Shown piece after piece: positions 5,396 through 33,236 of a stretch of DNA of 37,111 bases. The notes beneath the pieces were generated by a model, which was not told the origin of the DNA, searched no databases, and saw only the letters and a program-made list of their open reading frames with translations. Positions within the stretch are counted from its first letter, which is position 1. Each line of letters starts with the position of its first letter. Origin of the DNA: Lentisphaerota bacterium (GTDB lineage: Bacteria > Verrucomicrobiota > Lentisphaeria > Victivallales > Victivallaceae); NCBI GenBank assembly GCA_015061695.1, contig SUWA01000019.1, forward strand, positions 1 to 37,111, in the 5' to 3' direction. The position numbers and the translations under genes are program-made.

Positions 5396-6067
5396 TTAAT
5401 CCACTGCATCGGCCCGCTGCCACAAAAGGGTGCAGTCCGGCATAAGTTCTCCGTGGCGGGCGGCTTGGGCTGTATAGAATCGGAATGGTTCGCGGCTGTT
5501 GCGGCGGCCTTCCACATGACCGTCGCTGTAGAGTATATTGCTGAGTTGATAGCGGTGAGGTGCAAATTGTTCGCCTTGCGGTGTGATACAGGCAAAATCC
5601 ATGACTATAGCCCGGTTGATGTTGTCTTGTGCGCTCAACTGTCCGTTGAAATCACAGGCGCGTGCCCGGTAGAGGTAGCCGCTCCAGACCATGGGGATAG
5701 TGCGATAATTTTTCACCACGCAGTGCTGGTCGTATCCGGGCGAATCGGGGCAGCCGAAGATCCCCGGTTCATGCGTGTAACTGCCGATCAGACGGCCCAG
5801 CGCCACCGGCGAATAATCCGGCAGCCGCAGAATGGGTATGGAGTTATTTTCCAACCCCGGCATGATATTGGGTATTTCGCCGGAGTTGTCGCAACTGTAA
5901 AAAGTTATACATTGCGCAATGTTGCGCTGATGATTGGCACAGGCGGTCAGCCGTGCCCTGCTGTTGCTGTCGGCAAACATCGACACCAGCAAGGCGGCGA
6001 TCACGCAGATGATTGCAATAATGATCAACAGTTCAACAATGGTAAAATGCGGTCGGCGATTTTTCAC
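5396..6067 (-). CDS. Type II secretion/pseudopilin-like protein with prepilin leader
   Basis: A 223-residue protein whose N-terminus ([27 protein letters not shown]) is a class III prepilin leader followed by the hydrophobic pilin helix. The residue before the processing site is His rather than the usual Gly, while Glu at mature position 5 is kept. The C-terminal part contains [11 protein letters not shown], the DG(H) type signature seen in the DUF1559/H-X9-DG-like proteins abundant in Planctomycetes and Lentisphaerota; several Cys residues could form disulfides. The start is GTG at 6065-6067, overlapping the catalase stop by 4 bases (ATGTGA), with GGAG about 10 bases upstream, so the two are translationally coupled. 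Why a pilin-like protein should be coupled to catalase is unclear. Its role is unknown: cell-surface or secretion function is inferred from the leader alone. Confidence 0.82.
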
Positions 6068-7521
6068 ATTTCACACTCCATTTTCAAAGCCCGGGCTATG
6101 CCGCGGCCATATTCCGGATCAGCTCTGAAACAGTGTTCGATATGCCGCTTTCTGATAAAATCCGGCACCCCTTGCATGGCGCGGGCCGTGTTGGCAAAAA
6201 GCCGTTCTTTTTGAGCTTGATCCATCTTGCGGAAACGGTTGCCCGGTTGGGTGAAAAAGTCGTTGTCATCCAACCGGAAATCATAATTGTCGCCGTTGCC
6301 GTCAACCGGGGTAGGGGGGCATTTGAATTCCGGCTGTTCCTGCCAGATGCCGTAACTGTTGGGTTCGTAACTTAATTTGCTGCCGTAATTGCCGTCGGTA
6401 CGCATAAAACCATCGCGCGAATAACCGTTGACCGGGCAGCGGGCGCGGTTGACCGGAATCAGATGATGATTCACTCCCAGCCGGTAGCGCTGGGCATCGC
6501 CGTAAGCAAACAATCTGGCCTGCAGCATTTTGTCCGGCGAAAAACCGATCCCCGGAACTACGTTGGCCGGATTGAATGCGGATTGTTCGACTTCGGCAAA
6601 GTAATTTTCGTAATTGCGGTTGAGTTCCATCATGCCGACTGCGTGCAGCGGAAAATCTTCCTGCGGCCACTCTTTGGTCAGATCAAATGGGTTGTAATGC
6701 AAGTTTTGAGCTTGTTCTTCGCTCATCAACTGAACGCAAAGCTGCCAGCGCGGGTAGTCGCCGCGTTGGATGGCTTCGTAAAGATCGCGGATATTGCTGT
6801 CGCGGTCAGCGCCGCAAACCGCACTGGCTTCTTCGTCAGTCAGGAATTTTATTTCCTGCTGGCAGACCCAATGGAATTTGACCCAGGTGCGGTGGCCGTT
6901 GCGGGTATAAAAACTGAATGTATGACTGCCGAATCCGTGCATGTTGCGGTAACTTGCCGGAATGCCGTCATCGCTCATGGTAATGGTTATCTGATGCAAG
7001 GCTTCCGGCAAGCTCGTCCAGAAATCCCAGTTGGCGGCCGGATTGTGCAAGCCGGTAGCCGGATCTTTTTTTACCACATGGTTGAGGTCGGAAAAGTGAT
7101 TGGCGTCGCGCATAAAAAATACCGGTGTATTATTGCCGACCAGATCCCAGTTGCCTTGTTGAGTGTAGAATTTTACCGCAAAGCCCCGTATATCCCGCTC
7201 GGCGTCGGCCGCTCCGCGAAATCCGGCTACGGTGGAAAAGCGGACAAATACTTCGGTAACTTTGCCGATTTCACTGAAAATATCCGCACAGGTGTACCGG
7301 GTTATATCATTGGTTACAGTAAACGTGCCGTAGGCGCCCGCACCTTTGGCGTGCATCCGGCGTTCCGGGATCACTTCGCGGTTGAAGTTGGCCAGTTTTT
7401 CGATCAGATGCACATCTTCCATCAAAAGCGGGCCGCGCGCTCCGGCGGTGCGACTGTTCTGATTGTCGGCAATCGGGACCCCAAAGTTGCCGGTGAGTTT
7501 GTCGTGAGATGCTTTTTTCAT
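6064..7521 (-). CDS. katA: Monofunctional haem catalase
   Basis: Converts hydrogen peroxide to water and oxygen. At 485 residues it is a small-subunit (clade 3-like) catalase. Seen in order: the distal His57 in [12 protein letters not shown], the FSTVAG...[18 protein letters not shown] block, the distal Asn in [13 protein letters not shown] (residues 130-131), [65 protein letters not shown] with the haem-ligating Tyr340, then PVNGYSRDG. One oddity is Phe101 in [11 protein letters not shown], where both bacterial and animal enzymes normally have Glu. There is no signal peptide. The ATG at 7519-7521 follows GGAGG closely; that site lies in a hairpin. A terminator of the upstream kinase gene separates the two genes, so catalase should have its own promoter, but none was obvious in the 50 bases left. 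Confidence 0.95.
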
Positions 7522-7623: not shown

Positions 7624-9861
7624 TCAATGCGCCGGACAGGCCTGCACTTGCACGTTGCCGGCCAGACAGCGGTTGCAGAAATATTGCGAGAGTTGTTCGA
7701 TTTTTCTGCCCGCAATGCCGGTAAGATCAAACGAATCTGTGAAATTGGCTGAAAATTCAAGCAAGGTCGAATTGCCATTTTGTAAAAAACACGCCCGGAT
7801 AGTGATCCCAAACAAATTTATCCCGAAACGCATTGTACCGGTAATGCACTCCGGGGTGGCCTGTTGGATCGAAACTTGAGCATCCGCCATGGTCTGCATT
7901 ACAATATTCACCGCCGGTTCGGTATTGCCGGTCAGTAAAAACAATCCGTTTTGGATCGTTGTTACACACAACCGGTCAGGCGTGGAGGGCGCAACAGGGG
8001 CATGGATCACGCAGTCAGGAGTCGAGGCGCATATTTTCAGAAAAGCGGTAACAAATCTGGCGATTTTTTCGTCCAGCAGTTTTTTTTCGCTTTTGATCCC
8101 CAAGGATCCCGGTTGGACTGCGGTAATTTCGAGCCGGAGGACGTTCCCGTGCGGCGTAAAAGCCGCATTGATAACAGGTGCGTTGAGCAAAGGGAAGGTG
8201 AACTTACCGGAAATAACCTGTTCGGTCGCATTGAATACGTTTAAATTCAGTTGATTCATAGCATTTATGACCAGGCAATGAGCCGTATTGCTATTGCCTT
8301 CCAGCACAAAATGAGCCTGACTGCAAGGCGTAACATGCAGTTTGCCGGCAGTATCGAATTGCCGGTTTGAACTTGCTGCCGGTTGGATCGGCGGGGGGAT
8401 AGTTTGAGTCGGTTTATCAGCGCCACTCTGCTGCTCAAAACGGCAGTCGGGGGTGACTTGGCACATATTCACAAACAGTGAGATCACTTCCTGCAGCTTT
8501 TTTTCGCAGGCGTGGTGAACGTCAAAACCGCTTAACAGACTCGAGTTGAATGTCAGCGTGGTATTTTCTCCGGAACCATTGAACAGGGCTGTTACCCGGA
8601 TGCCGTTGGTCAGGTAATAACTTGCCGTGGCACAGATGCGGTTGCTGTCAGAAAAATTGACGATCATTTGCAACTGGGTCATCGCTCCGGAAATAAGCTG
8701 CCGGGCAATAGCAATATTGCCGCTTAATTTAAAACTGCTGCCGGATAACGGGGTTATGTAAAGTATATTCCCCCCGGCTTGCAGATGCGGGTTATCACAG
8801 TTTGTAAGTTTGATTTCAGCTGCTGTCTGCTCCGGTTCGGGCTGAATTGGCTGCACTGGCGGTGGGGCGGCAGCTGGTGAAACCGCAGGCGGCGACTGGT
8901 CGATAACAGGCGTTTTTACTGCTTGATTTGCCGGCGCATCCTGTCCGGCAGGTTTTTGCAGGGCTGCGGCAAAGTCGCTGCAGCTGGCAAATCGGTCGGA
9001 CGGGTTTTTGCTCAAAGCCCGCTTGAGTGCATTCCACACATATTCCGGAACGTTTTTCAGCGGTTGCGGCTGTTCGTTGAGCGCGCAATTGCGCATTATA
9101 TCTTTATCGGGGGTATCAAATGGCGGGTAACCGGCAAAAATTTCATAAACCATTACAGCCAGAGCATACTGATCGGAGGCCGGGGCAGGCTGTAAGCCGC
9201 GCCACTGTTCCGGCGCCATATAAGGCAAAGTACCGCTGGTATCGGCCTGATGCATAGATATGCGGCTCAATGAGTTGTGTATTTTTGCCGCCAGCCCGAA
9301 GTCAAGGATCTTGGCATTACCCTGCCGGTCGATCATAATATTGCCGGGTTTTATGTCGCGGTGCAGGATTGATTGCTTATGTGCATAATCCAGCGCATCG
9401 GCGATCTGGCGGATAAAGTGCCGGAGCTGTCCGGCAGCAATCCCGCCATCCGATTGGGCATTGTTCCGCAAATACCAACGCAGTTCCTGACCGTCCACAT
9501 ACTCCATTATCAGGTAGTATACACCGGTTCTTTTATCCTGCTCCAAGGTGTTGTAACTGGCAATGTTGGGGTGATTAAGATTATAAACCAGCCTGAAATT
9601 TTCTTTAACCTCCGCCATTGCCGGGGCGGAGCCGGAGAGTTCCGGGGCCAGTGTTTTCAGCGCCACTTTTACCCCGGCTACTTCATCAAAACACTCGTAG
9701 ACCACTCCCATGCCGCCTTTACCCAGTTCGGCAATGACCTTGTAGCGGTCCAGCAGCAGGGTTCCGACCCGGAGTTCGGGTGTGCGTTGCGCATAACGCA
9801 TAACATCCGGTATAGTTATGCCGGTATCGGGTTTTTCTTTCCCGGAAAAGTTGTTGTTCAT
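7624..9861 (-). CDS. Ser/Thr protein kinase with three repeated C-terminal modules
   Basis: A 745-residue eukaryote-type kinase. The catalytic domain spans about residues 38-305 and is complete: glycine loop GKGGMG (47-52), Lys69 in VALK, HRD with Asp169 and KPGN, DFG at 187-189, and APE at 216-218. A Pro/Ala/Gln-rich linker (about 306-350) leads to three related modules of about 110 residues (roughly 365-475, 506-617 and 629-744). Each runs through a L-x-(V/I)-T-P-like strand, an F-x-L-(S/E/T)-GN turn, an amphipathic helix with (M/I)xxMxQL, an (I/C)-x-(S/A/T)-G/A-x-(F/Y) strand pair, a hydrophobic strand, a long helix beginning EKKL/RKIE and a Cys pair near its end (CQVTPDC, CASTPDC, CNRCLAGN). 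I do not recognise this domain. No membrane helix is evident, so it is probably cytoplasmic. Start: ATG with AGGGGG upstream. It is divergent from a second kinase gene. Confidence 0.9.
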   Translation of the reverse strand: MNNNFSGKEKPDTGITIPDVMRYAQRTPELRVGTLLLDRYKVIAELGKGGMGVVYECFDEVAGVKVALKTLAPELSGSAPAMAEVKENFRLVYNLNHPNIASYNTLEQDKRTGVYYLIMEYVDGQELRWYLRNNAQSDGGIAAGQLRHFIRQIADALDYAHKQSILHRDIKPGNIMIDRQGNAKILDFGLAAKIHNSLSRISMHQADTSGTLPYMAPEQWRGLQPAPASDQYALAVMVYEIFAGYPPFDTPDKDIMRNCALNEQPQPLKNVPEYVWNALKRALSKNPSDRFASCSDFAAALQKPAGQDAPANQAVKTPVIDQSPPAVSPAAAPPPVQPIQPEPEQTAAEIKLTNCDNPHLQAGGNILYITPLSGSSFKLSGNIAIARQLISGAMTQLQMIVNFSDSNRICATASYYLTNGIRVTALFNGSGENTTLTFNSSLLSGFDVHHACEKKLQEVISLFVNMCQVTPDCRFEQQSGADKPTQTIPPPIQPAASSNRQFDTAGKLHVTPCSQAHFVLEGNSNTAHCLVINAMNQLNLNVFNATEQVISGKFTFPLLNAPVINAAFTPHGNVLRLEITAVQPGSLGIKSEKKLLDEKIARFVTAFLKICASTPDCVIHAPVAPSTPDRLCVTTIQNGLFLLTGNTEPAVNIVMQTMADAQVSIQQATPECITGTMRFGINLFGITIRACFLQNGNSTLLEFSANFTDSFDLTGIAGRKIEQLSQYFCNRCLAGNVQVQACPAH

Positions 9862-10155: not shown

Positions 10156-13053
10156 ATGATACGTTTTCAGTGCAAGCATTGTCAAAAAATCATCGCCAGC
10201 GATGTGTGGGAACCTGGCGCAATAACCAGTTGTGCTTATTGCGGTAAAGAAGTTGCAATGCCGGCCGAACGGTTGTCTCCGGGGGCAGTATTGGGGGATT
10301 TTATGCTGGTACGCAGACTGGGTGCCGGCGGTATGGGGATTGTGTATCTGGCGCACCAGCTGTCGCTGGACAGACCGGCGGCGATCAAGATCCTCAACTC
10401 GGAATTTTCCAAAGAAGCTGAATCTGTACAGGCGTTTATCCGCGAAGCCCGTTCGGCCGCCAAGATCAACCACCCCAGTATCGTGCAGGCTTATGCGGTG
10501 GGGGAAGAAGACGGTATTTTCTTTTTTGCCATGGAGTTTCTGGACGGACAGACTATGAAAGAAGTTTTGGCCGAAGAAAAGAAACTGGATGCCAACCGGG
10601 CTGCCCGAATCATTATTCAGATCGCAGAGGCGCTGGATTGTGCATGGCGCGAGCAGAAACTTATCCACCGCGACATCAAGCCCGACAATATTATGCAGTG
10701 CGCTCACGACCGGGTGAAACTGGCCGACTTGGGGTTGGCCGGTACGTTTGGTGATGATGCCGACGATGAAAGCAACGAAGTCATTGGCACTCCGCAATAT
10801 ATCAGCCCCGAACAGCTGACCGGTCAGGTTACTGATACCCGGAGCGATATTTACAGTTTGGGTGCTACATTCTATCATTTTGTAACCGGTCAATACCCGT
10901 ATAACGATGAAAATACCGAAGAAATCTTTAAAAAACACCTCAGCGAAGAACTGGTCCCTCCGATCAAAGTGAATCCGGCACTGCCGGCTGTGATCAACGG
11001 TATTATTGTCAAGATGATGGCCAAAAATCCGGCTGAACGTTATCAGAATTGTGCTGAACTGGTTGACGAACTCAAGCGTTTTCTGGCGTCGGAAGGTAAT
11101 TCTCCGGCAGTAAATCCATCTGCCGGCGGAATCAAGCTGGGGATCAAAAAACAGTCTGAAGCAGGCGCCGCTCCGGCACTTGCGCCGGCACCTGCGACGA
11201 CGGTAAAACCGGCTGCCGGTGGAATTAAGTTGAATATTAAAAAACAGCCGGAATCCGCTGCACCAGTTCCGGCTCCAGCTCCTGCTCCGGCACCAGCTCC
11301 TGCTCCGGCACCTGCTCCGGCTCCGGCTCCTGCACCGGCTGTAAAACCGGTTGCGGCCCCGACTCCGGCCCCGACTGCGGCGGCCAAACCGGTTGCGGCG
11401 CCTCAAGCTGCTCCGGCTGCCGGCGGCGCTGCTCCGAAAATCAATCTGATGCGCAAACCCGGCGGGGCTGCGGCCAAACCGGTTGCTGCACCTCAAGCCG
11501 CTCCGGCTCCGGTTGCGGCTGAACCGGTTGCAGAAACTTCTGCCGGAGCTGCCGCAACGGCTCCGGACAAAGCCAAGGCAACTGCAGAAAACGAAAAAGC
11601 TCCGGAAGATAAAAAAGCCGGGGAAGTCGATGAAGTTGCCGCCGCTGCTGCCGCCAAAGCGGAAAAAATCGAGTTGGAAAATAAAAAACGCAAAAAAAAC
11701 AAATTGATAGCTAAATTGGTTTGGTTCTGTGTATTTTTACTCTGCCTCGGCGTAGCCGGTGGGGCGTGGCTTTACCACGAAAAGAGCAAAAAGGCAGCTG
11801 ATGCCTCGCTGCAGGAAGAAATGAAACGGATCGAAGAGGAACGTTTGGCCCGGGAAAAGAAAGCCGAAGAACTTAAAAAAGCCGTAGAAGCTGATCAGGC
11901 AAAAGCCGAGGAAGAACGTCGGCAGGCACAAGCCCGGGCAGAGGAAGAATTCCGTAAGCAGCAGGCTGAAGAGCGCCGCCGCGCCGAAGAGATCAGAAAA
12001 CAGGCAGCGGTCAAAGAGAGTGCTTTCATGCGTGAGGGAAACCGGCTGCTGGAGCTCTCCAACCGCGATGCCAGAGGTTTTATGCGCGAATGGCCGGGCA
12101 AAAGTGCAAGAATGAAACCGGCTAATAGTGATGAAAAGAATTTGTTTGACCGTCTGGCTGCCCGCTTTGTGGAAGAAGATGAAAAAATAGTCAACAGCAA
12201 CCGCTCCGGCTTGATTTCGGATTATGAAAAGCGTTCAGCCCAGGCCGTTGCCGCCGCGGCAAAAAAACAACAGTACACCGGCGGAGGGAGCAGTCGGCCG
12301 GCTGCAGTCCGCCGCGATGATGCATCTTTGAATAAGAGTGCCGATAAGTCTGCAATTGAGTATAGTGGTGATTTGGATCGCAAACTGGGTTCTCTGGAGC
12401 ATGCCATGATAACGTTTGCCAAAAGCGGCAACCGGAAAATGTTCGACAGCAAGCTCAAATGGGCCCGGCAGGAAACGGAACGCGTGAAGTCGCTGGAGGC
12501 GTATAAGAGCAATCCGGACGTTTTTGACAGTGCTGCCCGGCAGTTGGCTGAATATGCAGATAAACTTGAGATCGTTGCGTCGGAAGGGTTCCACTTTAAT
12601 CAGGTTTTGAGCGGCAAAGTCAGACTTCCGGGCAACCGGAACTTGAAAAATGCTGAATTTGAATACCAGGGCAGCAGATTTGTTATTCTGTCGCACAGCA
12701 GAACCCAGCTGGTGCTGCAAAACAAGGAAACCCGTAAAAAGATCACTTTGGATCTGGTCAATGGCAAAATAAACGAGAACCGGGCGTGGATCGCGGCGAT
12801 CGAAAGCAATTTGCTGGGGCGCGCCGACCAATATTTCTATTTTATGCTTTTTAACGGACATTTGAACAATGCGGCTGCTTTGAGTGCGATCGCACCGGCT
12901 GATTACTGGCAAAAAGAGGTGCGGAACGTGCTTTACCGTTATTGTCTTTATACACTTGTGAATGACCCGCACCAGAAGAGTGCGCTGGAAAAAAATTACG
13001 GTAAAAGCAATGCTTTCAAGCGGGCGTTGGAAGAATCAGGGGCAGCGCAGTAA
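10156..13053 (+). CDS. Zinc-ribbon Ser/Thr protein kinase with TM helix and coiled coil
   Basis: A 965-residue kinase. Residues 1-35 form a small zinc ribbon (C6-x2-C9 ... C26-x2-C29). The kinase domain, about 47-312, has GAGGMG (56-61), Lys78 in AAIK, HRD with Asp173, DLG instead of DFG at 191-193, and SPE at 217-219; all catalytic residues are kept. The linker from 313 to about 510 is Ala/Pro rich, with an uninterrupted run of Ala-Pro dipeptides near 372-397, and carries three copies of a basic motif (GGIKLGIKKQ, GGIKLNIKKQ, PKINLMRKPGG). A single membrane helix lies at about 518-542, so the kinase is cytoplasmic. Outside follow a charged coiled coil (about 550-635) and an uncharacterised C-terminal domain. 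Start: ATG with GGGAG. The metallophosphoesterase gene begins 5 bp after the stop. The ligand and targets are unknown; an envelope sensor role is inferred from topology. Confidence 0.9.
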   Translation: MIRFQCKHCQKIIASDVWEPGAITSCAYCGKEVAMPAERLSPGAVLGDFMLVRRLGAGGMGIVYLAHQLSLDRPAAIKILNSEFSKEAESVQAFIREARSAAKINHPSIVQAYAVGEEDGIFFFAMEFLDGQTMKEVLAEEKKLDANRAARIIIQIAEALDCAWREQKLIHRDIKPDNIMQCAHDRVKLADLGLAGTFGDDADDESNEVIGTPQYISPEQLTGQVTDTRSDIYSLGATFYHFVTGQYPYNDENTEEIFKKHLSEELVPPIKVNPALPAVINGIIVKMMAKNPAERYQNCAELVDELKRFLASEGNSPAVNPSAGGIKLGIKKQSEAGAAPALAPAPATTVKPAAGGIKLNIKKQPESAAPVPAPAPAPAPAPAPAPAPAPAPAPAVKPVAAPTPAPTAAAKPVAAPQAAPAAGGAAPKINLMRKPGGAAAKPVAAPQAAPAPVAAEPVAETSAGAAATAPDKAKATAENEKAPEDKKAGEVDEVAAAAAAKAEKIELENKKRKKNKLIAKLVWFCVFLLCLGVAGGAWLYHEKSKKAADASLQEEMKRIEEERLAREKKAEELKKAVEADQAKAEEERRQAQARAEEEFRKQQAEERRRAEEIRKQAAVKESAFMREGNRLLELSNRDARGFMREWPGKSARMKPANSDEKNLFDRLAARFVEEDEKIVNSNRSGLISDYEKRSAQAVAAAAKKQQYTGGGSSRPAAVRRDDASLNKSADKSAIEYSGDLDRKLGSLEHAMITFAKSGNRKMFDSKLKWARQETERVKSLEAYKSNPDVFDSAARQLAEYADKLEIVASEGFHFNQVLSGKVRLPGNRNLKNAEFEYQGSRFVILSHSRTQLVLQNKETRKKITLDLVNGKINENRAWIAAIESNLLGRADQYFYFMLFNGHLNNAAALSAIAPADYWQKEVRNVLYRYCLYTLVNDPHQKSALEKNYGKSNAFKRALEESGAAQ

Positions 13054-24221: not shown

Positions 24222-25262
24222 TTACGGTACGGTGCGCTCCAGTGTATTTTCCAGCCACACCGCTACAAGCACCAGCAGCATGGCGATCATGCCCAACAGG
24301 GGTGCGTATTCATAATATTCTATGTGGCGCGGCTGTTCAAAGTTGGTTTTTTCCAGCTGATTGATTTCGTTCATAACGCTGTTCATAGCGTTGGCATCGG
24401 CGGCCCGGAAATATTTGCCGTTGGTGGCTTCGGCAATATCTTTCAGCAGCTGTTCATCAAAAGAGCTTTGGATCGGTTCAAAGCGGCGGCCGAGGATGGA
24501 ATCCTGCAAGGCAAAAGAGTTGCCGCCGCCAATGCCGACCGTGTAGATGACGATGTTTTTTTCTTTCGCCAGTTTGGCTGTTTCCAGCGGGGTAAGCCGG
24601 TGAGCAATATTGTTGACTCCATCGGTAAAAAGCACCATTACCCGACGGGGCGCTTGAGAATTATCCAGCCGCCGGATAGCCGAAGCCATGGGGCTGGCAA
24701 TGCCGGTACCGTCGCCGATAATACCGGGTTCGAGCATATCAAGAGAATTTTTCAGCATTTCATGATCCAGCGTCGGCGGCGCAAAATTATAACCGTATTC
24801 GGCAAAACCGATCAAGCCGATGCGGTCATTGGGGCGTTGGTCAATAAACTTGTTCAGCTCGTTTTTAGCTATATCGAGCCGGTTTTTCAGGCGCCCGGAC
24901 TGGTAGAGATCGACCAGTTCCCGGTAGGTTCTGACTTCTTGCGGCACATCAAAAGTCTGCATACTGCCGGAGAGGTCAAGCACCATGACTATATCTATGC
25001 CCTGCTGACGGAATAAGAATTTTTCGTTGCCGCTGCGCGGGCGGGCCAGCGCTACGATCAATAACAGCATGGCCAGACTGATAAGCAGGTGGGAAATTCC
25101 CGGGCGGGTACGCCGGAAAAAGCGCCGTTGGGATGTGGTTTGACTGTCCGGCCAGAAGGGCAAGACTACGCCGGGGTGTTTTTTGAAAAAAAGAAAATAT
25201 ATGATTCCCGCCACCGCCGGAATTAAAGCTGCCAGCATCCATGGATAAGCAAAATAACTCAT
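24222..25262 (-). CDS. batA: BatA-like membrane VWA-domain protein
   Basis: A 346-residue protein of the Bacteroides aerotolerance (Bat) type. Two N-terminal hydrophobic helices (about 5-26 and 58-76) are followed by a von Willebrand A domain with a complete metal site: DLSGSM (DxSxS), the Thr in IIGDGTGIASPMASAI and Asp in LFTDGVNN. A final helix lies at about 318-336, so the VWA domain sits in the periplasm or cytoplasm between membrane anchors as in known BatA. The segment FDVPQEVRTYRELVDLYQ differs from the usual EDF-(S/T)P-(N/D)R linker. It is the last gene of the minus-strand group moxR-DUF58-BatD-like-batA and begins 3 bp after the preceding gene, with GGAG upstream. Role: unknown in detail; these proteins act in envelope stress tolerance. 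Confidence 0.87.
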   Translation of the reverse strand: MSYFAYPWMLAALIPAVAGIIYFLFFKKHPGVVLPFWPDSQTTSQRRFFRRTRPGISHLLISLAMLLLIVALARPRSGNEKFLFRQQGIDIVMVLDLSGSMQTFDVPQEVRTYRELVDLYQSGRLKNRLDIAKNELNKFIDQRPNDRIGLIGFAEYGYNFAPPTLDHEMLKNSLDMLEPGIIGDGTGIASPMASAIRRLDNSQAPRRVMVLFTDGVNNIAHRLTPLETAKLAKEKNIVIYTVGIGGGNSFALQDSILGRRFEPIQSSFDEQLLKDIAEATNGKYFRAADANAMNSVMNEINQLEKTNFEQPRHIEYYEYAPLLGMIAMLLVLVAVWLENTLERTVP

Positions 25263-25265
25263 ACT

Positions 25266-26255
25266 TTAACGCTCCGTTGAATTTTTTGTATCTGTTTGCG
25301 GGGTGGTATCTTGTACCAACTGTATGATTTGGCTGATCGCCGCGGCAATGAATTGGCTGTCCGGTTTGATGTTGGCAAATTTTATCAGGTCGAGCTTCTG
25401 CATGAATATTTCCAAAAACTCAATTTGTCTGACCTGAAAATAACCGCTGTTTTGCTGCAGCAGTAAACTCAATTCTCCGGAGGTGGAGGCCGCAAGATCC
25501 CATTGATAACGCTTACTCAAATAATCCAGCAGTATTTCGCCTGATTTGATGGCGATATTGCGCAGATCCTGCGGATGATTCTGCAGCTGCTGACGGAGTT
25601 TTTCCAACTGTAATTGCGCTGTTACCCATGGCGGGTACTGCTTGTGTTTACGTCGGATCAGAAAATAAAATCCGGCCGCCAGAATGATCGCCGCCGGCAG
25701 CACAACAGCAGCCGGCAGCAGCCAGGAGCGGTAATTTTTCCGGTGCGGTTCCGGCGGTGGTTCGATGGCGCCGGCAACCGGCAGTTCTGCATCTTTTGCT
25801 ATGACTTTAGGCTCAATCGAAATCCGGGGCAGAGCAAGTTGCAAAGCGGTTTTTTTCGGCGCATTTTTGAACCATGGCCGTTCGATTTGCAGTTCGGCTT
25901 TGACTGGTTTCAGAACGCCTGTCCGGTACGCTTTTACCGGGCAGATTATGCGCACCGTGCGCCCGTTGATTTGCCGGGAAACTTTTTGGATCTGCGGGGG
26001 GGCGGTTTGCAGCAAGCCTTCCGGCAACACAAAATCCACATCGGTGATTTGCTGGGACCATGGCAGAGTGCAGGTCAATTCAAGCGCAAAGTCTTGCCCC
26101 AGAGTCGGATTTTCCGGTTCAAGCACTTGTGCGTCAAGTTCCACCGCCCCATACATGGCCGCCCGGAAGTAGATGACTCCGCCGGCGGCAGCCGCTGTGA
26201 GCAGTAAAGCGGCCAGCAGCGAAAAAACAGTTATAAAAACAGTTTTGCGTTTCAT
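25266..26255 (-). CDS. BatD-like/DUF4381-type membrane protein of the MoxR-Bat operon
   Basis: A 329-residue protein with an N-terminal signal anchor (KTVFITVFSLLAALLLTAAAAGGVIYF), a beta-rich extracytoplasmic domain (about 35-165; EPENPTLGQDFALELTCTLPWSQQITDVDF), a second membrane helix at about 190-212 followed by a basic RRKHK stop-transfer, and a helical cytoplasmic tail. The tail (YLSKRYQWDLAASTSGELS...EFLEIFMQKLDLIKFAN) resembles the C-terminal part of DUF4381 proteins found in MoxR operons of other phyla. The ATG at 26255 is preferred; a TTG at 26267 would also be in frame. It overlaps or abuts DUF58 and precedes batA by 4 bp. It is probably a partner of the VWA proteins; function is not known. 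Confidence 0.72.
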   Translation of the reverse strand: MKRKTVFITVFSLLAALLLTAAAAGGVIYFRAAMYGAVELDAQVLEPENPTLGQDFALELTCTLPWSQQITDVDFVLPEGLLQTAPPQIQKVSRQINGRTVRIICPVKAYRTGVLKPVKAELQIERPWFKNAPKKTALQLALPRISIEPKVIAKDAELPVAGAIEPPPEPHRKNYRSWLLPAAVVLPAAIILAAGFYFLIRRKHKQYPPWVTAQLQLEKLRQQLQNHPQDLRNIAIKSGEILLDYLSKRYQWDLAASTSGELSLLLQQNSGYFQVRQIEFLEIFMQKLDLIKFANIKPDSQFIAAAISQIIQLVQDTTPQTDTKNSTER

Positions 26256-26263
26256 CCTTTTTT

Positions 26264-27166
26264 TCAACTTCCGTTAAAAGAGTTGTTGCGTTGTTTTTTG
26301 CGGCGGAGAAAATATTTCATAAGTTCAGTTGCCACATCCTGTCCGCCGGCGAGTTCCAGCAAATCAGCTCCGGAGCGTCTGCACATGCTTCGGTTTATAT
26401 CCATCTGTTGCCGGGCTGCGTCGACCACTTTCCGGATGGAGCGGCGCGAGCTGATTCGATGAAAAATTCCGCTTTCGGCATCATAAATATTTTTTACTTC
26501 CCGCGGCAGCACAAACATGGCCGGTTCAAATACATGCAGCACGATCACTTCGTGCCGTCGGCTGGCGATCCGGAGTGCTTTTTCCAACTCTGCGCCGCCG
26601 GCAGTCAAATCGCTGATAAGAAAGATCACACTGCGCTTTTTAAGTATGCTGCACCCGTGGCGCAGGGCCGAAGCAATATCGGTGGTGCGCGGTTGGCCGG
26701 TTCCGGCCGCGGCAATCAGTTCGCGAATCAGCCGCAGCCGGTTATGGCGTCCGCTGCGCGGCATCAGGAGTTTTTCCACCCGGTCGCTGAAAAGCATCAA
26801 GCCGACCCGGTCATTATTTTTCATGGCACTCAAACCCAGCATAGCCGCAGCTTCCACGGCCCGTTCGCAGACTTTGCTGCCGGCGGGGCCGAAGTACATG
26901 GAACTGGATGTATCGACCATCAGCAGTACAGTAAGTTCGCGTTCTTCAACATATTTTTTGACAAAAGGTGCGTTGAGCCGGGCGCTGACGTTCCAGTCGA
27001 TATCGCGTACGTCATCTTCAAACGTATACTCGCGCACTTCATCAAATTCGATTCCGCGGCCTTTGAAAACGCTGTGGTAAGCTCCCGAGATGGCATCCGT
27101 TACCTTCCTGCGGGTAACGATTTCCAGCTTGCGGACTTTTTTCAGCAGTTCGGCAGTTTGCAGCAT
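26264..27166 (-). CDS. DUF58 domain protein (MoxR-associated, VWA-like)
   Basis: A 300-residue soluble protein. It shows the DUF58 core GAYHSVFKGRGIEFDEVREYTFEDDVRDIDWNVSARLNAPFVKKYVEERE, one of the best conserved segments of this family, then a VWA-like fold with MVDTSSSMYFG, NDRVGLMLFS, TTDIASALRHGCSIL and FLISDLTAGG. The ATG at 27166 gives the family N-terminus (LQTAELLKKVRKLEI); the reading frame is open to a TTG at 27181 that would overlap the moxR stop. DUF58 proteins are constant partners of MoxR AAA+ ATPases, and the pair is thought to act as a chaperone or metal-cofactor insertion system. The gene lies 11 bp after moxR. Nothing is missing from the fold. Confidence 0.92.
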   Translation of the reverse strand: MLQTAELLKKVRKLEIVTRRKVTDAISGAYHSVFKGRGIEFDEVREYTFEDDVRDIDWNVSARLNAPFVKKYVEERELTVLLMVDTSSSMYFGPAGSKVCERAVEAAAMLGLSAMKNNDRVGLMLFSDRVEKLLMPRSGRHNRLRLIRELIAAAGTGQPRTTDIASALRHGCSILKKRSVIFLISDLTAGGAELEKALRIASRRHEVIVLHVFEPAMFVLPREVKNIYDAESGIFHRISSRRSIRKVVDAARQQMDINRSMCRRSGADLLELAGGQDVATELMKYFLRRKKQRNNSFNGS

Positions 27167-27177
27167 GATGTCTGTTC

Positions 27178-28203
27178 TCAAGGGGTTCGGAGATTTTCGA
27201 GCAGATACTCTATGAGGTTGTCGCTGGAAATATTTTCAGCTTCAGCTTCGTAACTTATCGTTATGCGGTGGCGCAATATATCCAAGGCCACATCTTTTAC
27301 ATCCTGCGGTATGACGTAAGGTCGGCCGGAAAGCATGGCCTGGGCTTTGGCACCCAGAGTCAGCGCGATCGCGGCCCGGGGGCTGGCGCCGAAGTCAATG
27401 TTGCCTTCAAGCATCGCAAGATTCACATTGCTCTGACGCGCCGACAGTTCGTTGATATGCCCGGGGCGGGTGGCGATCACCAGATCGAGGATATATTCAA
27501 CGATTTTTTCATCCATATAAACCCGATCAAGGGCTTTGCGCGCATTCATTATATCGCCGAGGGTGGTTACTGGTGAAGCCTGTTCGCTCCAATCCGGATG
27601 CGCCGAGCGCTCTATAACCAGCCGTTCTTCGTCGCGCCGGGGATAGGTTACCGAAAGTTTGAACATAAAGCGGTCGACCTGGGCTTCGGGCAGGGGGTAG
27701 GTGCCTTCCTGTTCAATCGGATTCTGGGTGGCCATGACCATAAAAAATTCGGGCAGAGGGAAGCGCTCGCCGCCGATGGTGATCTGTTTTTCCTGCATGG
27801 CTTCCAGAAGTGCGCTCTGCACTTTGGCCGGAGCGCGGTTGATTTCGTCGGCCAGTACGATGTTGGCGGAAATCGGACCGGTGCGGGTGGTGAATTTATG
27901 GGTTTCAGCATTATATATGCGCGTGCCGATCAGGTCGGCCGGCAGCAGATCCGGAGTAAACTGTATGCGCGAAAAACTCACGTTAAGCGCCTGACTCAAA
28001 GTTTTTACTGCCAGCGTTTTAGCCAGACCCGGCACGCCTTCGATCAAAACGTGGCCGCCGGTTATCAAGGCAATCAAAAGCCGGTCGATGAGTTTTTCCT
28101 GCCCGGCGATGATCCGGTTGATTTCATTACGCAGCGGAGTTATAAATGCAGACGCTTCGCGCAGTTCGGCCTGCAGTTCGGCCAGATTGGATTGATTGAG
28201 CAT
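27178..28203 (-). CDS. moxR: MoxR family AAA+ ATPase
   Basis: A 341-residue AAA+ ATPase. Walker A is GVPGLAKT, Walker B VLADEINRAPAKVQSALLEAMQEKQITIGG, sensor-1 ATQNPIEQEGTYPLPEAQVDRFMF, and the C-terminal lid has SPRAAIALTLGAKAQAMLSGR. All nucleotide-binding residues look intact. MoxR proteins are thought to act as chaperones for the VWA proteins encoded beside them. The start is ATG at 28203 (LNQSNLAELQ), with AAGGA at about 28217-28213; a longer frame to 28353 is open, but the likely promoter lies just upstream of that point, and the extra residues have no family match. It is the first gene of the minus-strand half of the Bat locus. Confidence 0.94.
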   Translation of the reverse strand: MLNQSNLAELQAELREASAFITPLRNEINRIIAGQEKLIDRLLIALITGGHVLIEGVPGLAKTLAVKTLSQALNVSFSRIQFTPDLLPADLIGTRIYNAETHKFTTRTGPISANIVLADEINRAPAKVQSALLEAMQEKQITIGGERFPLPEFFMVMATQNPIEQEGTYPLPEAQVDRFMFKLSVTYPRRDEERLVIERSAHPDWSEQASPVTTLGDIMNARKALDRVYMDEKIVEYILDLVIATRPGHINELSARQSNVNLAMLEGNIDFGASPRAAIALTLGAKAQAMLSGRPYVIPQDVKDVALDILRHRITISYEAEAENISSDNLIEYLLENLRTP

Positions 28204-28356
28204 AAGTATATATCCTTCCATCGTTGATCCGCCGGTTTTACCGGCAATATCGGTCGGCAGTAAAGACATCAAAGCGGATCGGATTGTTCGATAAATTACT
28301 GTTTTTAATGATTTAACGTCTGCGGTGAACAGACCATATAAAATCAATAACAAAGA

Positions 28357-28384
28357 AAAATAGCGAACAAATCTTTTTTGTCAA
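28357..28384 (-). promoter_or_regulatory. Promoter of the moxR-DUF58-BatD-like-batA operon
   Basis: Minus strand TTGACA (28384-28379), 16 bases, TATTTT (28362-28357). The leader to the moxR ATG at 28203 would be about 147 bases, long enough to hold regulatory structure. Confidence 0.6.
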
Positions 28385-28436
28385 GAGTCGAAACCCAGGA
28401 AAAATGAAAAAAACTCTTTTTTTAATGCAAAAAGGG

Positions 28437-28465
28437 TTGGCCTTTCAGGGAAAATATGCTATTTT
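28437..28465 (+). promoter_or_regulatory. Candidate promoter of the BatB-BatC gene
   Basis: TTGGCC (28437-28442), 17 bases, TATTTT (28460-28465), about 23 bases before the expected start of the leader and 30 bases before the ATG. Weaker than the minus-strand promoter. Confidence 0.35.
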
Positions 28466-28494
28466 TCTGAACGTTTATGGAGTATGTGTAAAAC

Positions 28495-30765
28495 ATGAAG
28501 TTTATTTATCACAATTTGTTATGGCTGCTGCCGGTGGTGTTGATCCTGATTTTGGCCGCGTGGATATATGGCGATTGGTGCCGCCGGAAATGTTTGAATG
28601 AATATTTAAATGGCGGGTGTAATCTGATAATATCTTATCCGGCGCGTTGGCTGCGGCGTCTGTTGCTGTTGGGCGCTTTACTGCTGCTGGCGGTTGCAGC
28701 GGCCCGCCCGTACTGGGGCGAACGGCCATTGGAGCAGAATCGCTGGGAAAGTGATACTTTGATCATTTTTGACGTGTCCAAAAGTATGTTGGCCGAAGAT
28801 GTGGCACCTTCGCGGCTGGAACACGGTAAATATCTGGCCAGAGAACTGGTCAAACGCAATCCGGGAATGAATTTTGCTCTGATCGCTTTTGCCGGTCGGG
28901 CGTTTCCGGCCTGTCCGCTGACTGCCGATAAATTCAGTTTATTGCAAAGTATTGATGAGCTTGACTGCAATCTGATTCCGCGCGGGGGAACTGATTTGGC
29001 TTCCGCACTGCGTCTGGCGGTCAGAATGTTCAAAAAAGACAACAGCGCGGTCAAGCAGATCGTTTTGATAACCGATGGCGAAGAACTCTCCGGCAGCGCT
29101 CAATCTGAACTCGACAGTTTGAGCAAATCCGGCATAAAACTGTTGATCGTCGGGGTCGGTGAGTCTGGGCAGCCGGCATTGATCCCGCTGGGCCAGGGCG
29201 GTAATAGCCGCAGCTTTATGCGCGATGCCAACGGCGAATTGGTCAAAACCACTTTGAACGGCAAGTTGCTGCGTCAGCTGGCTGATTCATCCGGCGGCGT
29301 GTATATAAACAGCAATACTGCCGACAGCGGGTTGGAAATGATCGGGCGTGAGTTGCAGCGGCAGGAGCTTTCGCGCCGTAAATCGTTGAAGCAATCGCTG
29401 CCGATCGAGCGTTTTATGATTTTTCTGGCGATCGCAACAGCGGGATTGTTCGGGTACATGTTGTGCGGCGAGGCCGGCAAATTCAAACTGCGGCTGTGGC
29501 TGCTGGGGTTCATCTGTTTGTGTATGGGTACAGACAATGCAACCGCGGCAGAGAGTTTGCCGGAATCCTCAACAAGTCAAGCAACTCAAATTGAAATGCC
29601 GCCGGCGAGTGATCCATATTATATTTACGAAACCGCCCGCAAATTACAGTTGGAAAAACGTTATGATGAAGCCGCTGAATTGTATACAAAACTTTTGAGC
29701 CGCAAAATGCAAGTAACCGGCGAACTGCGCAAGGCTGCCGCTCATAATCTGGGCATATTGAATCACCTTAATGCTCAATCTGACTACAGGAATTCAGTTC
29801 AATTTCTTCAGCAGGGCAAGATGGATGAAGCATTGAAACTGCTGGATGAATGTTTAAACAACTTGAAAAAGGCGGAAGCTCAATATATCAATGCTATGAG
29901 TCAGGGACGGAGTGCCGGCAATACCGATGAGCTTTCTGCCCAGGCCCAGCAACAGATGCTGTTGGATCAAGCCGCAGCCGGAGAGTTGGAAAAAAAGATC
30001 CGGGAGTATCAAAAACAACAGCAGGAAGCCGAACAGAAAATTCAGCAGGCCCGACAGGAAAATCAAGCCAATAAAGATCAGCAAGCCAATAAAGATCAAC
30101 AAGCCAATAAAGATCAACAAGCCAATAAAGATCAACAAGCCAATAAAGATCAACAACCCGGTAAAGATCAACAAGCCAATAAAGATCAACAACCCGGTAA
30201 AGATCAGCAACCCGGTAAAGATCAACAACCCGGTAAAGATCAGCACCCCGGTCAAAACAAGGATTCCGGTGAAAATAACGATTCCGGTGCCGGCAGCGAG
30301 GCCTTGCAGCAGGCCCGTCAGGCGGTGGAGAACCTTGCTCAACAATCCGGCTCGCTTTCAGAAGGGTTGAAAAAACGATCCGAAGCTGCGGCCGAAGCGT
30401 TGAAAAAAGCTGAACAAGCCCAAAAACAGCAGGATTTCAAAGCCGCAGATGAGCATTTGCTACAAGCATTGGATAAAATTTCGGCCGGGCAAACCGGTGA
30501 ATCCGGAGAGGGGGCAAACAAAGATCAACCAACCGGCGGTGATGAAGCCCAATCGGGTAACTCCGACAAAAAATCGGATGATCCCACCGGCGAAAATCCC
30601 CAAAACAGTAATGAACAAGCTGTGAAAGAGCAGCGGAGCAATCAGATGGATCGCTCCCAGACCGATGCACTGCTGGAAACGATGAGTCAGGATGAAAAAG
30701 CCTTGCGCGATGCAATCAACAAGAACCGCGGCTTCCGTATAGCGCCGGTGGAAAAGGATTGGTAA
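28495..30765 (+). CDS. Fused BatB-BatC-like protein: membrane VWA, TPR and repeat tail
   Basis: A 756-residue protein. Two membrane helices (about 8-25 and 52-70) lead to a VWA domain (about 85-275) with metal-site residues DVSKSM, GGTDLASAL and ITDGEE. Helices at about 303-322 and 331-346 follow, the second ending in a Cys-containing stretch. Then come TPR-like helices (about 374-460; YETARKLQLEKRYDEAAELYTKLLSR ... KMDEALKLLDECLNNLKKAEAQYINAM) and a polar Gln/Lys/Asp tail with ten six-residue repeats (523-582), and a charged C-terminus. BatB and BatC are normally separate proteins; the gene order and domains show a fusion. GGAGT lies before the ATG. It converges in role with the neighbouring minus-strand Bat operon. 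The tail is presumably unstructured and its function unknown. Confidence 0.85.
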   Translation: MKFIYHNLLWLLPVVLILILAAWIYGDWCRRKCLNEYLNGGCNLIISYPARWLRRLLLLGALLLLAVAAARPYWGERPLEQNRWESDTLIIFDVSKSMLAEDVAPSRLEHGKYLARELVKRNPGMNFALIAFAGRAFPACPLTADKFSLLQSIDELDCNLIPRGGTDLASALRLAVRMFKKDNSAVKQIVLITDGEELSGSAQSELDSLSKSGIKLLIVGVGESGQPALIPLGQGGNSRSFMRDANGELVKTTLNGKLLRQLADSSGGVYINSNTADSGLEMIGRELQRQELSRRKSLKQSLPIERFMIFLAIATAGLFGYMLCGEAGKFKLRLWLLGFICLCMGTDNATAAESLPESSTSQATQIEMPPASDPYYIYETARKLQLEKRYDEAAELYTKLLSRKMQVTGELRKAAAHNLGILNHLNAQSDYRNSVQFLQQGKMDEALKLLDECLNNLKKAEAQYINAMSQGRSAGNTDELSAQAQQQMLLDQAAAGELEKKIREYQKQQQEAEQKIQQARQENQANKDQQANKDQQANKDQQANKDQQANKDQQPGKDQQANKDQQPGKDQQPGKDQQPGKDQHPGQNKDSGENNDSGAGSEALQQARQAVENLAQQSGSLSEGLKKRSEAAAEALKKAEQAQKQQDFKAADEHLLQALDKISAGQTGESGEGANKDQPTGGDEAQSGNSDKKSDDPTGENPQNSNEQAVKEQRSNQMDRSQTDALLETMSQDEKALRDAINKNRGFRIAPVEKDW
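30064..30243 (+). repeat. Ten tandem 18-bp repeats coding QANKDQ/QPGKDQ
   Basis: Ten perfect or near-perfect 18-base units inside the BatB-BatC gene, two sequence types (QANKDQ in units 1-5 and 7; QPGKDQ in units 6 and 8-10). The mosaic order suggests recent expansion and gene conversion. Copy number would be expected to vary among strains without breaking the reading frame. Confidence 0.95.
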
Positions 30766-30767
30766 AA

Positions 30768-33236
30768 ATGAAAAAAAATCCGTTGGTAATATATTTGGCC
30801 GGCATTTTTATGCTGTTGGGTTCTCTGTTTGCCGCCGATACGATCGACGCACAATTGGAGCCGGAGATCGTTGTGCCGGGTGAGCCGTTTTATCTGATAT
30901 TGAACAGTGCGGGCAATGATATACCGGAACTGCAGGAAGTTCCGGAGGGTTTTCAGGTCAGCGGCCGCAGTCAGAGTGTGCAGATCAACAACAATCAGCG
31001 CCATAATCAGGTGAGTTTGCTGATGCTGCCGCCGGATACTCCGGGCAAGTACACGATCGGGCCGCTGAAGGTAAAACTGGGCCGCCGGACGCTTTTGACC
31101 AAATCTATGACGCTGACGGTGCAAAAAGATACCGCTTCGGAGGAAATCGGCGAGCAATGTTTTTTACGCAGCAGATTCAGCAAGATGCGCGGCAATTTTT
31201 ATGTCGGCGAAAATATTCCGCTGGAAATTTCGCTCTTTTACCGGCCCGGGTTGAATATTGCGCCCGGTTATCCGGCGCTCGAGATCGGTAAATCGGTCTT
31301 TGCTGATTACCGGCAGCAAAATCCGCGGAACAAAGACTTTGCCGTGCCGCGGCAGAATCGCGCAGTGGTGGATAATGTAGTTTATGGTAAAATAATTTTC
31401 AATACCGCCGTGCGACCGCTGGCTCCCGGAAAATTGCAAATCAGTGGCATTGTGCCGTGCCAGATAAGAGTTCCGGTTAAGTCACGGAGCAACAGTTTTT
31501 TCGGCAGCACTCATTACCGCGAAATCCAGCGCAAACTTAAAGTTGAACTGCCTGAAATATCGGTTTTGCCGTTGCCGGAACTCCCCGGAAATGAGCCTTT
31601 TACCAAATTGATCGGCCAATATCAGATGATTTGCACGTTGGATAAAGAAAGGATCAATGCGCTGGAACCTTTGAGTTTGCAAATAGTTATCAGCGGGCAG
31701 GGCGGTTTTGAAAGTTTTTCTGCTCCTGTTTTGCAGTTGAACTCCTGCCGGGTATATCCGGGGCAGGTGAACCGGCAGAATGACAGTTTAACTTTGGAAT
31801 ATATAATAATTCCGCTTAAAAGCGGAGTGCTGCCGATCGACTTGAAGTGGCTTTATTTTGATCCGGAAGCCGGTCGGTACCAGAGTTTGACTTTTGCGGA
31901 CAAGGTAACGGTCGATCCGCCGCTGAACGGTGCCGCGCTGCCGCCGTCAGAGCCCGGCGGCCAATCCGGGCACGGGCTTGACGACGAGTCCGAACCCGCT
32001 CCGGACGCATCCACGGTCAAGCCATCGGCTTTGCTTTATTGCAAAAAAGCTCCGGAAAGCGCATGGAGTCAGTTTTATCGCCGCAACCGGCTGATTCTGG
32101 CCGGAGTTCTGGTTCTGGCCGGAGCAATACTGCTTTTGAGCGTTGAGTTGATCCGGTATTACCGGCAGCTGCGCCGGAAAGATCCCGATTGGCAGCGCCG
32201 CCGGCAAGCCAATGCCAGGCGCAGCTTATTGGCCGAAAAGCTCCGCACTGTTCAGGATGAAGAATTGCCGCGGCTGGTTACCGGCGAAATTGCCGATTGT
32301 TTATGTGATTTATGGGGATTGCCGGCCGGTTCCACGCCCGAAGAAGTTGCCGCACATACCTGTAACTTTGAAGTTGCCGAAGTCATACAGGAATGTGCCA
32401 ATATAAGTTACCTGCCATCGAAATTGTCCGGCAAGGCACTCAATGATGCCGCCCGCACCCGACGGGTGCTTTTGAATGTACTCAAGTGTGTTGTCATCGG
32501 TGTGGCGGTTCTGATGGGTACTCCTTTGACTGCCGCTGAAAAAACAGACCACCATATTCCGCAGGATTGGACTCGTGCGCTCCAAGCCTTTGACCACGGT
32601 GATTATCCATCTGCCGGAAAATATTTTGAGCAGTATGACCGCGAGAATCCGACTGATTGTCATGTACTCTATAATCTCGGTTGTATTGCGGAGGCGGAAA
32701 ACAAACCGGAACTGGCGCTGTTTTTCTTTGAAGCTGCCGGCCGGTTGAATCCATCCGACCGGGCCACGATCGAAAACCGCAACCTCATGCGTCGCAAATT
32801 ACTGCTGGATAATCATACTTCGGATAATACTCCGGTTGGCTGGCTGAAATCATGCCGCGACTGGTATCGCTGGGAGGATTACTGCTTTGCCGCGGCGTTG
32901 GGATTTTTTATCTTCTGCGTGATAATGGCCTTGCGCAAGCGCATGAGTCAGGCGTGGCGTTGGGCTTTGACTGCCGTGATCGCGGCATGGATGGTGATCG
33001 TTCTGGCGGCGCTGTTGAGCCTGACAGCATCTGCCCGGAGCAATGACGCCATGGTAGTGGTCAAACAGGCCGATCTTTACAATTTTCCCAACCCGGATAA
33101 TACGGAGCCGTCCGGGAGTTTGAGCGGCGGCAGCGAGGTGCGGATTCTGGAAAAGCGTTCCAATACATCGCTGGTGCGCTCCGGAAACACCGAAGGCTGG
33201 ATCCTGAATGAAAATATCCGGAAATATCCGCGTTGA
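30768..33236 (+). CDS. Fused BatD-BatE-like protein: BatD, TPR and SH3b domains
   Basis: An 822-residue protein. A signal peptide (about 1-23) is followed by BatD-type beta-sandwich domains (about 25-400; ACDxxxx-like segments FYVGENIPLEISLFYRPG and ALEPLSLQIVISGQGGF), a variable linker, a membrane helix at about 438-460, a cytoplasmic helical stretch, a second hydrophobic segment near 570-590 (VVIGVAVLMGTPLTAAEK), TPR repeats (about 593-660; ALQAFDHGDYPSAGKYFEQYDRENPTDCHVLYNLGCIAEAENKPELALFFFEAAGRLNP), two more helices (about 705-722, 731-753) and a bacterial SH3 domain (about 757-822; VVVKQADLYNFP...GSEVRILEKRSNTSLVRSGNTEGWI). BatD and BatE are separate in the classic operon. ATG 30768 with AAAAGGA upstream; a TTG three codons earlier is not preferred. 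It starts 2 bp after the BatB-BatC stop. Confidence 0.85.
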   Translation: MKKNPLVIYLAGIFMLLGSLFAADTIDAQLEPEIVVPGEPFYLILNSAGNDIPELQEVPEGFQVSGRSQSVQINNNQRHNQVSLLMLPPDTPGKYTIGPLKVKLGRRTLLTKSMTLTVQKDTASEEIGEQCFLRSRFSKMRGNFYVGENIPLEISLFYRPGLNIAPGYPALEIGKSVFADYRQQNPRNKDFAVPRQNRAVVDNVVYGKIIFNTAVRPLAPGKLQISGIVPCQIRVPVKSRSNSFFGSTHYREIQRKLKVELPEISVLPLPELPGNEPFTKLIGQYQMICTLDKERINALEPLSLQIVISGQGGFESFSAPVLQLNSCRVYPGQVNRQNDSLTLEYIIIPLKSGVLPIDLKWLYFDPEAGRYQSLTFADKVTVDPPLNGAALPPSEPGGQSGHGLDDESEPAPDASTVKPSALLYCKKAPESAWSQFYRRNRLILAGVLVLAGAILLLSVELIRYYRQLRRKDPDWQRRRQANARRSLLAEKLRTVQDEELPRLVTGEIADCLCDLWGLPAGSTPEEVAAHTCNFEVAEVIQECANISYLPSKLSGKALNDAARTRRVLLNVLKCVVIGVAVLMGTPLTAAEKTDHHIPQDWTRALQAFDHGDYPSAGKYFEQYDRENPTDCHVLYNLGCIAEAENKPELALFFFEAAGRLNPSDRATIENRNLMRRKLLLDNHTSDNTPVGWLKSCRDWYRWEDYCFAAALGFFIFCVIMALRKRMSQAWRWALTAVIAAWMVIVLAALLSLTASARSNDAMVVVKQADLYNFPNPDNTEPSGSLSGGSEVRILEKRSNTSLVRSGNTEGWILNENIRKYPR

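Follow-up and report, generated by a model that had tools for sequence, protein, structure and literature searches.

A tandem domain of predicted KA1/BamC-like fold behind a Ser/Thr kinase domain in Lentisphaeria

Here we describe a bacterial multidomain Ser/Thr kinase with a new accessory domain, for which structure prediction indicates a KA1/BamC-like fold. The gene lies in a 37,111-nucleotide stretch of DNA (the window) from a gut-type Lentisphaerota bacterium. Its C-terminal half carries three copies of a module that lacks a named sequence family, and we propose that these copies control the kinase by docking, autoinhibition or both.

The gene and its kinase domain

The features of the gene, all on the reverse strand, are as follows.
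7624..9861 (-): whole gene, 745 amino acids plus stop (open reading frame translation)
8953..9750 (-): Ser/Thr (Hanks-type) kinase domain, residues 38-303 (Pfam Pkinase 8.3e-49 and motif positions)
8773..8952 (-): Pro/Gln/Ala-rich linker, residues 304-363 (translation, composition)
8446..8772 (-): module 1, residues 364-472 (alignment above shuffles; relatives-only profile 26.7 bits)
8347..8445 (-): linker between modules 1 and 2, residues 473-505
8014..8346 (-): module 2, residues 506-616, predicted KA1/BamC-like (alignment; AlphaFold2 pLDDT 86.8, pTM 0.80)
7978..8013 (-): short linker between modules 2 and 3, residues 617-628
7654..7977 (-): module 3, residues 629-736, predicted KA1/BamC-like (AlphaFold2 pLDDT 83.6, pTM 0.77; relatives-only profile)

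A Pfam scan assigned residues 40-292 of the 745-residue protein to Pkinase (8e-49), and the Hanks-type motifs are all present (GKGGMG at residue 47, VALK at 66, HRDIKPGN at 167 and DFG at 187); from these motifs the kinase domain is apparently catalytically complete. The protein falls outside the PASTA/PknB kinases (NF033483): its score of 213 bits is below the cut-off of 450, and the match stops at residue 333, before the modules. PADLOC matches to the defence kinases PD-T4-6 and MAD6 span the kinase domain, run into the linker only partway if at all, and never extend to the modules. The original prediction held that the protein has no membrane helix, and we agree: no 19-residue stretch exceeds a mean Kyte-Doolittle hydropathy of 1.2, so the kinase is most likely a cytosolic protein.

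Three copies of one module

Three related segments of about 110 residues had been noted after the kinase domain, and alignment of the segments with one another bears this out. Smith-Waterman scores (BLOSUM62) are 94 for modules 1 and 2, 100 for modules 1 and 3 and 83 for modules 2 and 3, far above the mean of 26-28 and the top score of 50-54 obtained from 1,000 shuffles, none of which equalled the real scores. As judged from these alignments, the three modules are homologous and the repeat is real. The F-x-L-x-GN turn and M-bearing helix reported earlier were also recovered: F, L, G and N in the turn and an M in the first helix, which follows the turn, are invariant across the three copies, as are I, A, F, G, L, K, F and C at further positions of the three-way alignment.

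Relatives in other genomes

We searched overlapping sets of 100 near-relative, 78 family, 137 order, 198 class and 388 phylum genomes. In the source genome the module occurs three times, all within the 7624-9861 gene. Genuine relatives were found in four other genomes of these sets, all of the same class (G052, G400, G443 and, marginally, G304). The G052 relative (Lentisphaeria bacterium RGIG3449, goat rumen, contig JAFSTC010000032.1) is a protein of 204 amino acids with two CxxC pairs followed by one module. In G443 (266 amino acids), two CxxC pairs, a Pro-rich linker and one module follow in order; in G304 (310 amino acids), two CxxC pairs and a Pro/Gln-rich linker precede a module-like segment (16.7 bits, compared with a top score of 12.9 among 5,000 shuffles) and then hydrophobic, membrane-like segments. 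The zinc-ribbon-like segments of these three proteins were read from the Cys pattern, and their Pfam matches are weak. The G400 relative (419 amino acids) has a Peptidase_C14 caspase domain (1e-15) and a module broken by an in-frame TGA. Four congeners, with draft assemblies of 80-94% completeness, lack the module, and among the genomes searched its fusion to a kinase was seen only in the window gene. In contig scans the tandem query found no relative, and the G052 module query found just the contig of G052 itself.

Several weak matches were set aside. Those in G039, G033 and G105 lie in MurD-type proteins and that in G021 in a pilin-like open reading frame, and all were treated as chance; a match in G019 (0.0046) contained three internal stops, disappeared with the next profile and was dropped. 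At the G400 locus, two adjoining caspase-like genes (L034:335-4220) were observed, one with long Sel1/TPR-type repeats and the other ending in the TGA-interrupted module. Next to and overlapping the G052 module gene is a gene of 535 amino acids (L029:1200-2807, (-)) with a metallo-beta-lactamase-like look (AHHGSRGG, HPHEDH) and no convincing Pfam match.

We built a profile from the relatives alone, without any row from the window. It gave 58.7 bits for module 3, 26.7 bits for module 1 and -0.3 bits for module 2 (not significant alone), compared with a top score of 8.5 among 2,000 shuffled tails. Module 2 is the most divergent of the three copies, and module 3 is the copy nearest to relatives in other genomes. 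Recent triplication in place was rejected because the modules of G052 (36% identity) and G443 (30%) resemble module 3 more than modules 1 and 2 do (23-26%).

A sequence family without a name on a known fold

Searches of the whole protein and of single modules against Pfam (E up to 10), NCBIfam and PHROGs returned, beyond the kinase, only chance-level matches, and module profiles of five or seven rows gave only chance matches to PDB sequences (E of about 0.6 and above). The KA1 profile PF02149 matched neither the modules at E up to 10 nor any part of the source genome at E up to 1, and there was no Pfam match to a BamC sequence profile in the protein or the modules. No relative of the module was found in the plasmids, phages and viral contigs searched, and no RNA families were found in the window. 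Open papers that pair 'KA1 domain' with 'bacterial', retrieved by full-text search, have titles that are all on eukaryotic subjects. The modules appear to be a sequence family undescribed in the libraries searched, with a predicted fold that is already known. The 'uncharacterised' module of the original prediction thus stands as a sequence family, with no named match in the profile libraries, but not as a fold.

AlphaFold2 was given four rows, the three window modules and the G052 relative. The models of modules 2 and 3 (scores listed above) show the same order of elements, in which a helix lies between an initial pair of strands and four further strands and a long helix comes last, in line with the earlier suggestion of a repeated alpha/beta module; the two predictions draw on essentially the same four sequences and are hence not fully independent. 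In Foldseek searches of the PDB, module 3 matched Chk1 KA1 first (E = 1.4e-4), followed by BamC, the AMPK-alpha C-terminal domain, MARK KA1 and METTL16 VCR; its alignment to a second Chk1 KA1 chain has a TM score of 0.61 by query and 0.75 by target (rmsd 2.7 over 92 columns). Module 2 matched BamC first (4.7e-5), then Chk1 KA1, AMPK and SOS2. Aligned identity to the PDB fold matches is about 7-17%, and a search of a viral structure library returned nothing at E 0.001. KA1 and Bet v1, with related proteins, belong to a single TBP-like class of folds. In the KA1 fold, two helices pack against a sheet of five strands (PMC4686854, PMC4454167), an arrangement also found in the predicted structures of modules 2 and 3. 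On these models, the modules are a new domain family on a known helix-grip fold (KA1/BamC-like) and not a new fold.

The resemblance to KA1 (PF02149) and to the AMPK-alpha C-terminal domain extends from the prediction of two helices on an antiparallel sheet over about 100 residues to the position C-terminal to a Ser/Thr kinase domain, past a linker. That position is true of the window protein but not of its four relatives, which are not kinases; the modules further differ from KA1 in lacking a sequence match, in standing three in tandem and in having no excess of basic residues. With BamC (NlpB) they share the predicted helix-grip fold and a tandem layout past a flexible linker. However, BamC belongs to the BAM complex as an outer-membrane lipoprotein, whereas the window protein starts with a probably cytosolic kinase and has neither a membrane segment nor a match to the BamC profile. 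The KA1-like fold is no evidence of descent, given the low identity, the lack of a KA1 profile match and the equally good matches to BamC. Common ancestry with KA1 is possible but unsupported by sequence, and a bacterial kinase-regulatory lineage with a genuine evolutionary link to the eukaryotic KA1 domains is highly improbable; if such descent were true, the kinase-plus-KA1 architecture of the AMPK/Chk1 type would have a bacterial counterpart in Lentisphaeria.

Sister kinases and gene surroundings

Other kinases of the same genome are 53-60% identical to the module kinase in the kinase domain. Three could be read to their ends and have FGE-sulfatase-like C-termini in place of the modules (Pfam-tested for one), and two more run off contig ends. 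The sister kinases share a similar kinase domain and differ in their C-termini, and therefore the C-terminus is the swapped part. Among the same-genome kinases with FGE-sulfatase-like C-termini (L019, L020 and L023), some also have long charged, coiled-coil-like stretches. Kinases of the PVC superphylum carry sulfatase-modifying-factor, TPR and WD40 C-termini, and typically 70-80% have a transmembrane helix (PMC11032199). The window protein resembles these multidomain kinases in joining a kinase domain to a swappable C-terminal array, with FGE-sulfatase-fused sisters in the same genome, but its accessory domain lies outside Pfam and it has no transmembrane helix.

Upstream of the module kinase and divergent from it is a second Ser/Thr kinase of 965 amino acids (10156-13053, (+)). 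This protein begins with a zinc-ribbon-like CxxC...CxxC segment and also has Pro/Ala repeats, a single probable membrane helix and a stretch that is charged and coiled-coil-like. It is kept in all four congeners (46-50% identity). The zinc-ribbon-like segment, the kinase and the module are joined pairwise across different proteins, as seen from the fusions in the relatives and from the CxxC...CxxC segment of this second kinase. In the stretch searched upstream of the congeners' copies we found none of the window's other genes, and tblastn gave no catalase match there; a clean insertion beside the 10156 kinase could not be demonstrated. A catalase gene (6064-7521, (-); Pfam 6e-181) shares the strand of the module kinase and lies about 100 bp downstream of it; an operon of the two is neither strongly supported nor strongly opposed. 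Elsewhere in the window, 24222-33236 reads like a Bat/MoxR-type operon, with MoxR-like ATPase, DUF58-like, VWA and BatD-like genes as judged from their translations.

Proposed role of the array

From the predicted fold, the position and the domain partners, we propose that the three modules are a non-catalytic docking and/or autoinhibitory array that controls the kinase, a reading to which we give an even chance. The protein would be a soluble kinase with a C-terminal half consisting of a flexible linker and three tandem KA1/BamC-like helix-grip domains. A protein, either a substrate or a regulator, would bind to the modules, and/or the modules would fold back on the kinase domain and restrain it until a partner binds, a mechanism already proposed for C-terminal domains of the KA1 type in eukaryotic kinases. 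Mutation of KA1 makes Chk1 constitutively active (PMC4454167). In the relatives the module is fused to zinc-ribbon-like segments or a caspase-like peptidase, a pattern expected not of an enzyme but of a portable domain for interaction or regulation. Against this proposal, the module never adjoins a kinase in the relatives, and inhibition in SAD kinases comes from the sequence just before KA1, not from the KA1 domain (PMC4686854). Docking or autoinhibition nevertheless fits the predicted fold better than the 'sensor' label that the modules originally received.

One form that a sensor could take is a START/Bet v1-like receptor, in which a hydrophobic small molecule held between sheet and helix switches the kinase. 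The modules are poor in charged residues (11-14%), and their weaker Foldseek matches include the START/Bet v1-like proteins CalU16, DynU16 and Rv2186c. These matches have low TM scores (0.20-0.47) and poor rmsd, however, and KA1 and BamC, neither of which is known as a small-molecule receptor, match better; we consider ligand sensing unlikely. Association with acidic phospholipids of the membrane would follow the precedent of MARK KA1, which binds membranes (PMC4686854) and whose fold the predicted one resembles, and the G304 relative has its hydrophobic segments past the module. Lipid binding by MARK and SAD KA1 relies on basic clusters (PMC4686854), whereas the net charges of the modules are 0, +2 and -2. 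A lipid-binding KA1 would be expected to carry net positive charge. The near-neutral modules do not, which counts against a KA1-type reading and makes lipid binding less likely; we judge it quite improbable.

The Cys residues had suggested a metal or redox site, and a sensor of this kind might be tied to the adjoining, same-strand catalase gene. Residues 355-745 do contain 15 Cys. Instead of the C-x4-C spacing first reported, the pairs are C-x5-C in module 1 (467/473), C-x5-C in module 2 (611/617) and C-x2-C in module 3 (729/732). A single Cys column is common to the three modules and G052, the second Cys is variable, so that the pair as such is missing from the relatives, and the G443 module has no Cys in the corresponding helix. 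The varying spacing and poor conservation in relatives argue against a metal or redox site, as do the lack of a conserved His/Cys cluster and the absence of a recognisable catalase among the listed genes around the four relatives, as read from gene listings. A metal or redox sensor is, in our view, very unlikely.

Significance

Accessory domains decide the signals and substrates of bacterial Ser/Thr kinases, and the kinases of the PVC superphylum have been catalogued via Pfam domains (PMC11032199). The module described here is a rare domain, invisible to Pfam, whose fusion partners are a kinase, zinc-ribbon-like segments and a caspase-like peptidase, and the alignment of the modules and their relatives provides a seed for a new family. 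Its predicted fold serves kinase regulation in eukaryotic AMPK-family kinases, and the Lentisphaeria protein offers a case in which the parallel use of one fold to control kinases can be tested.
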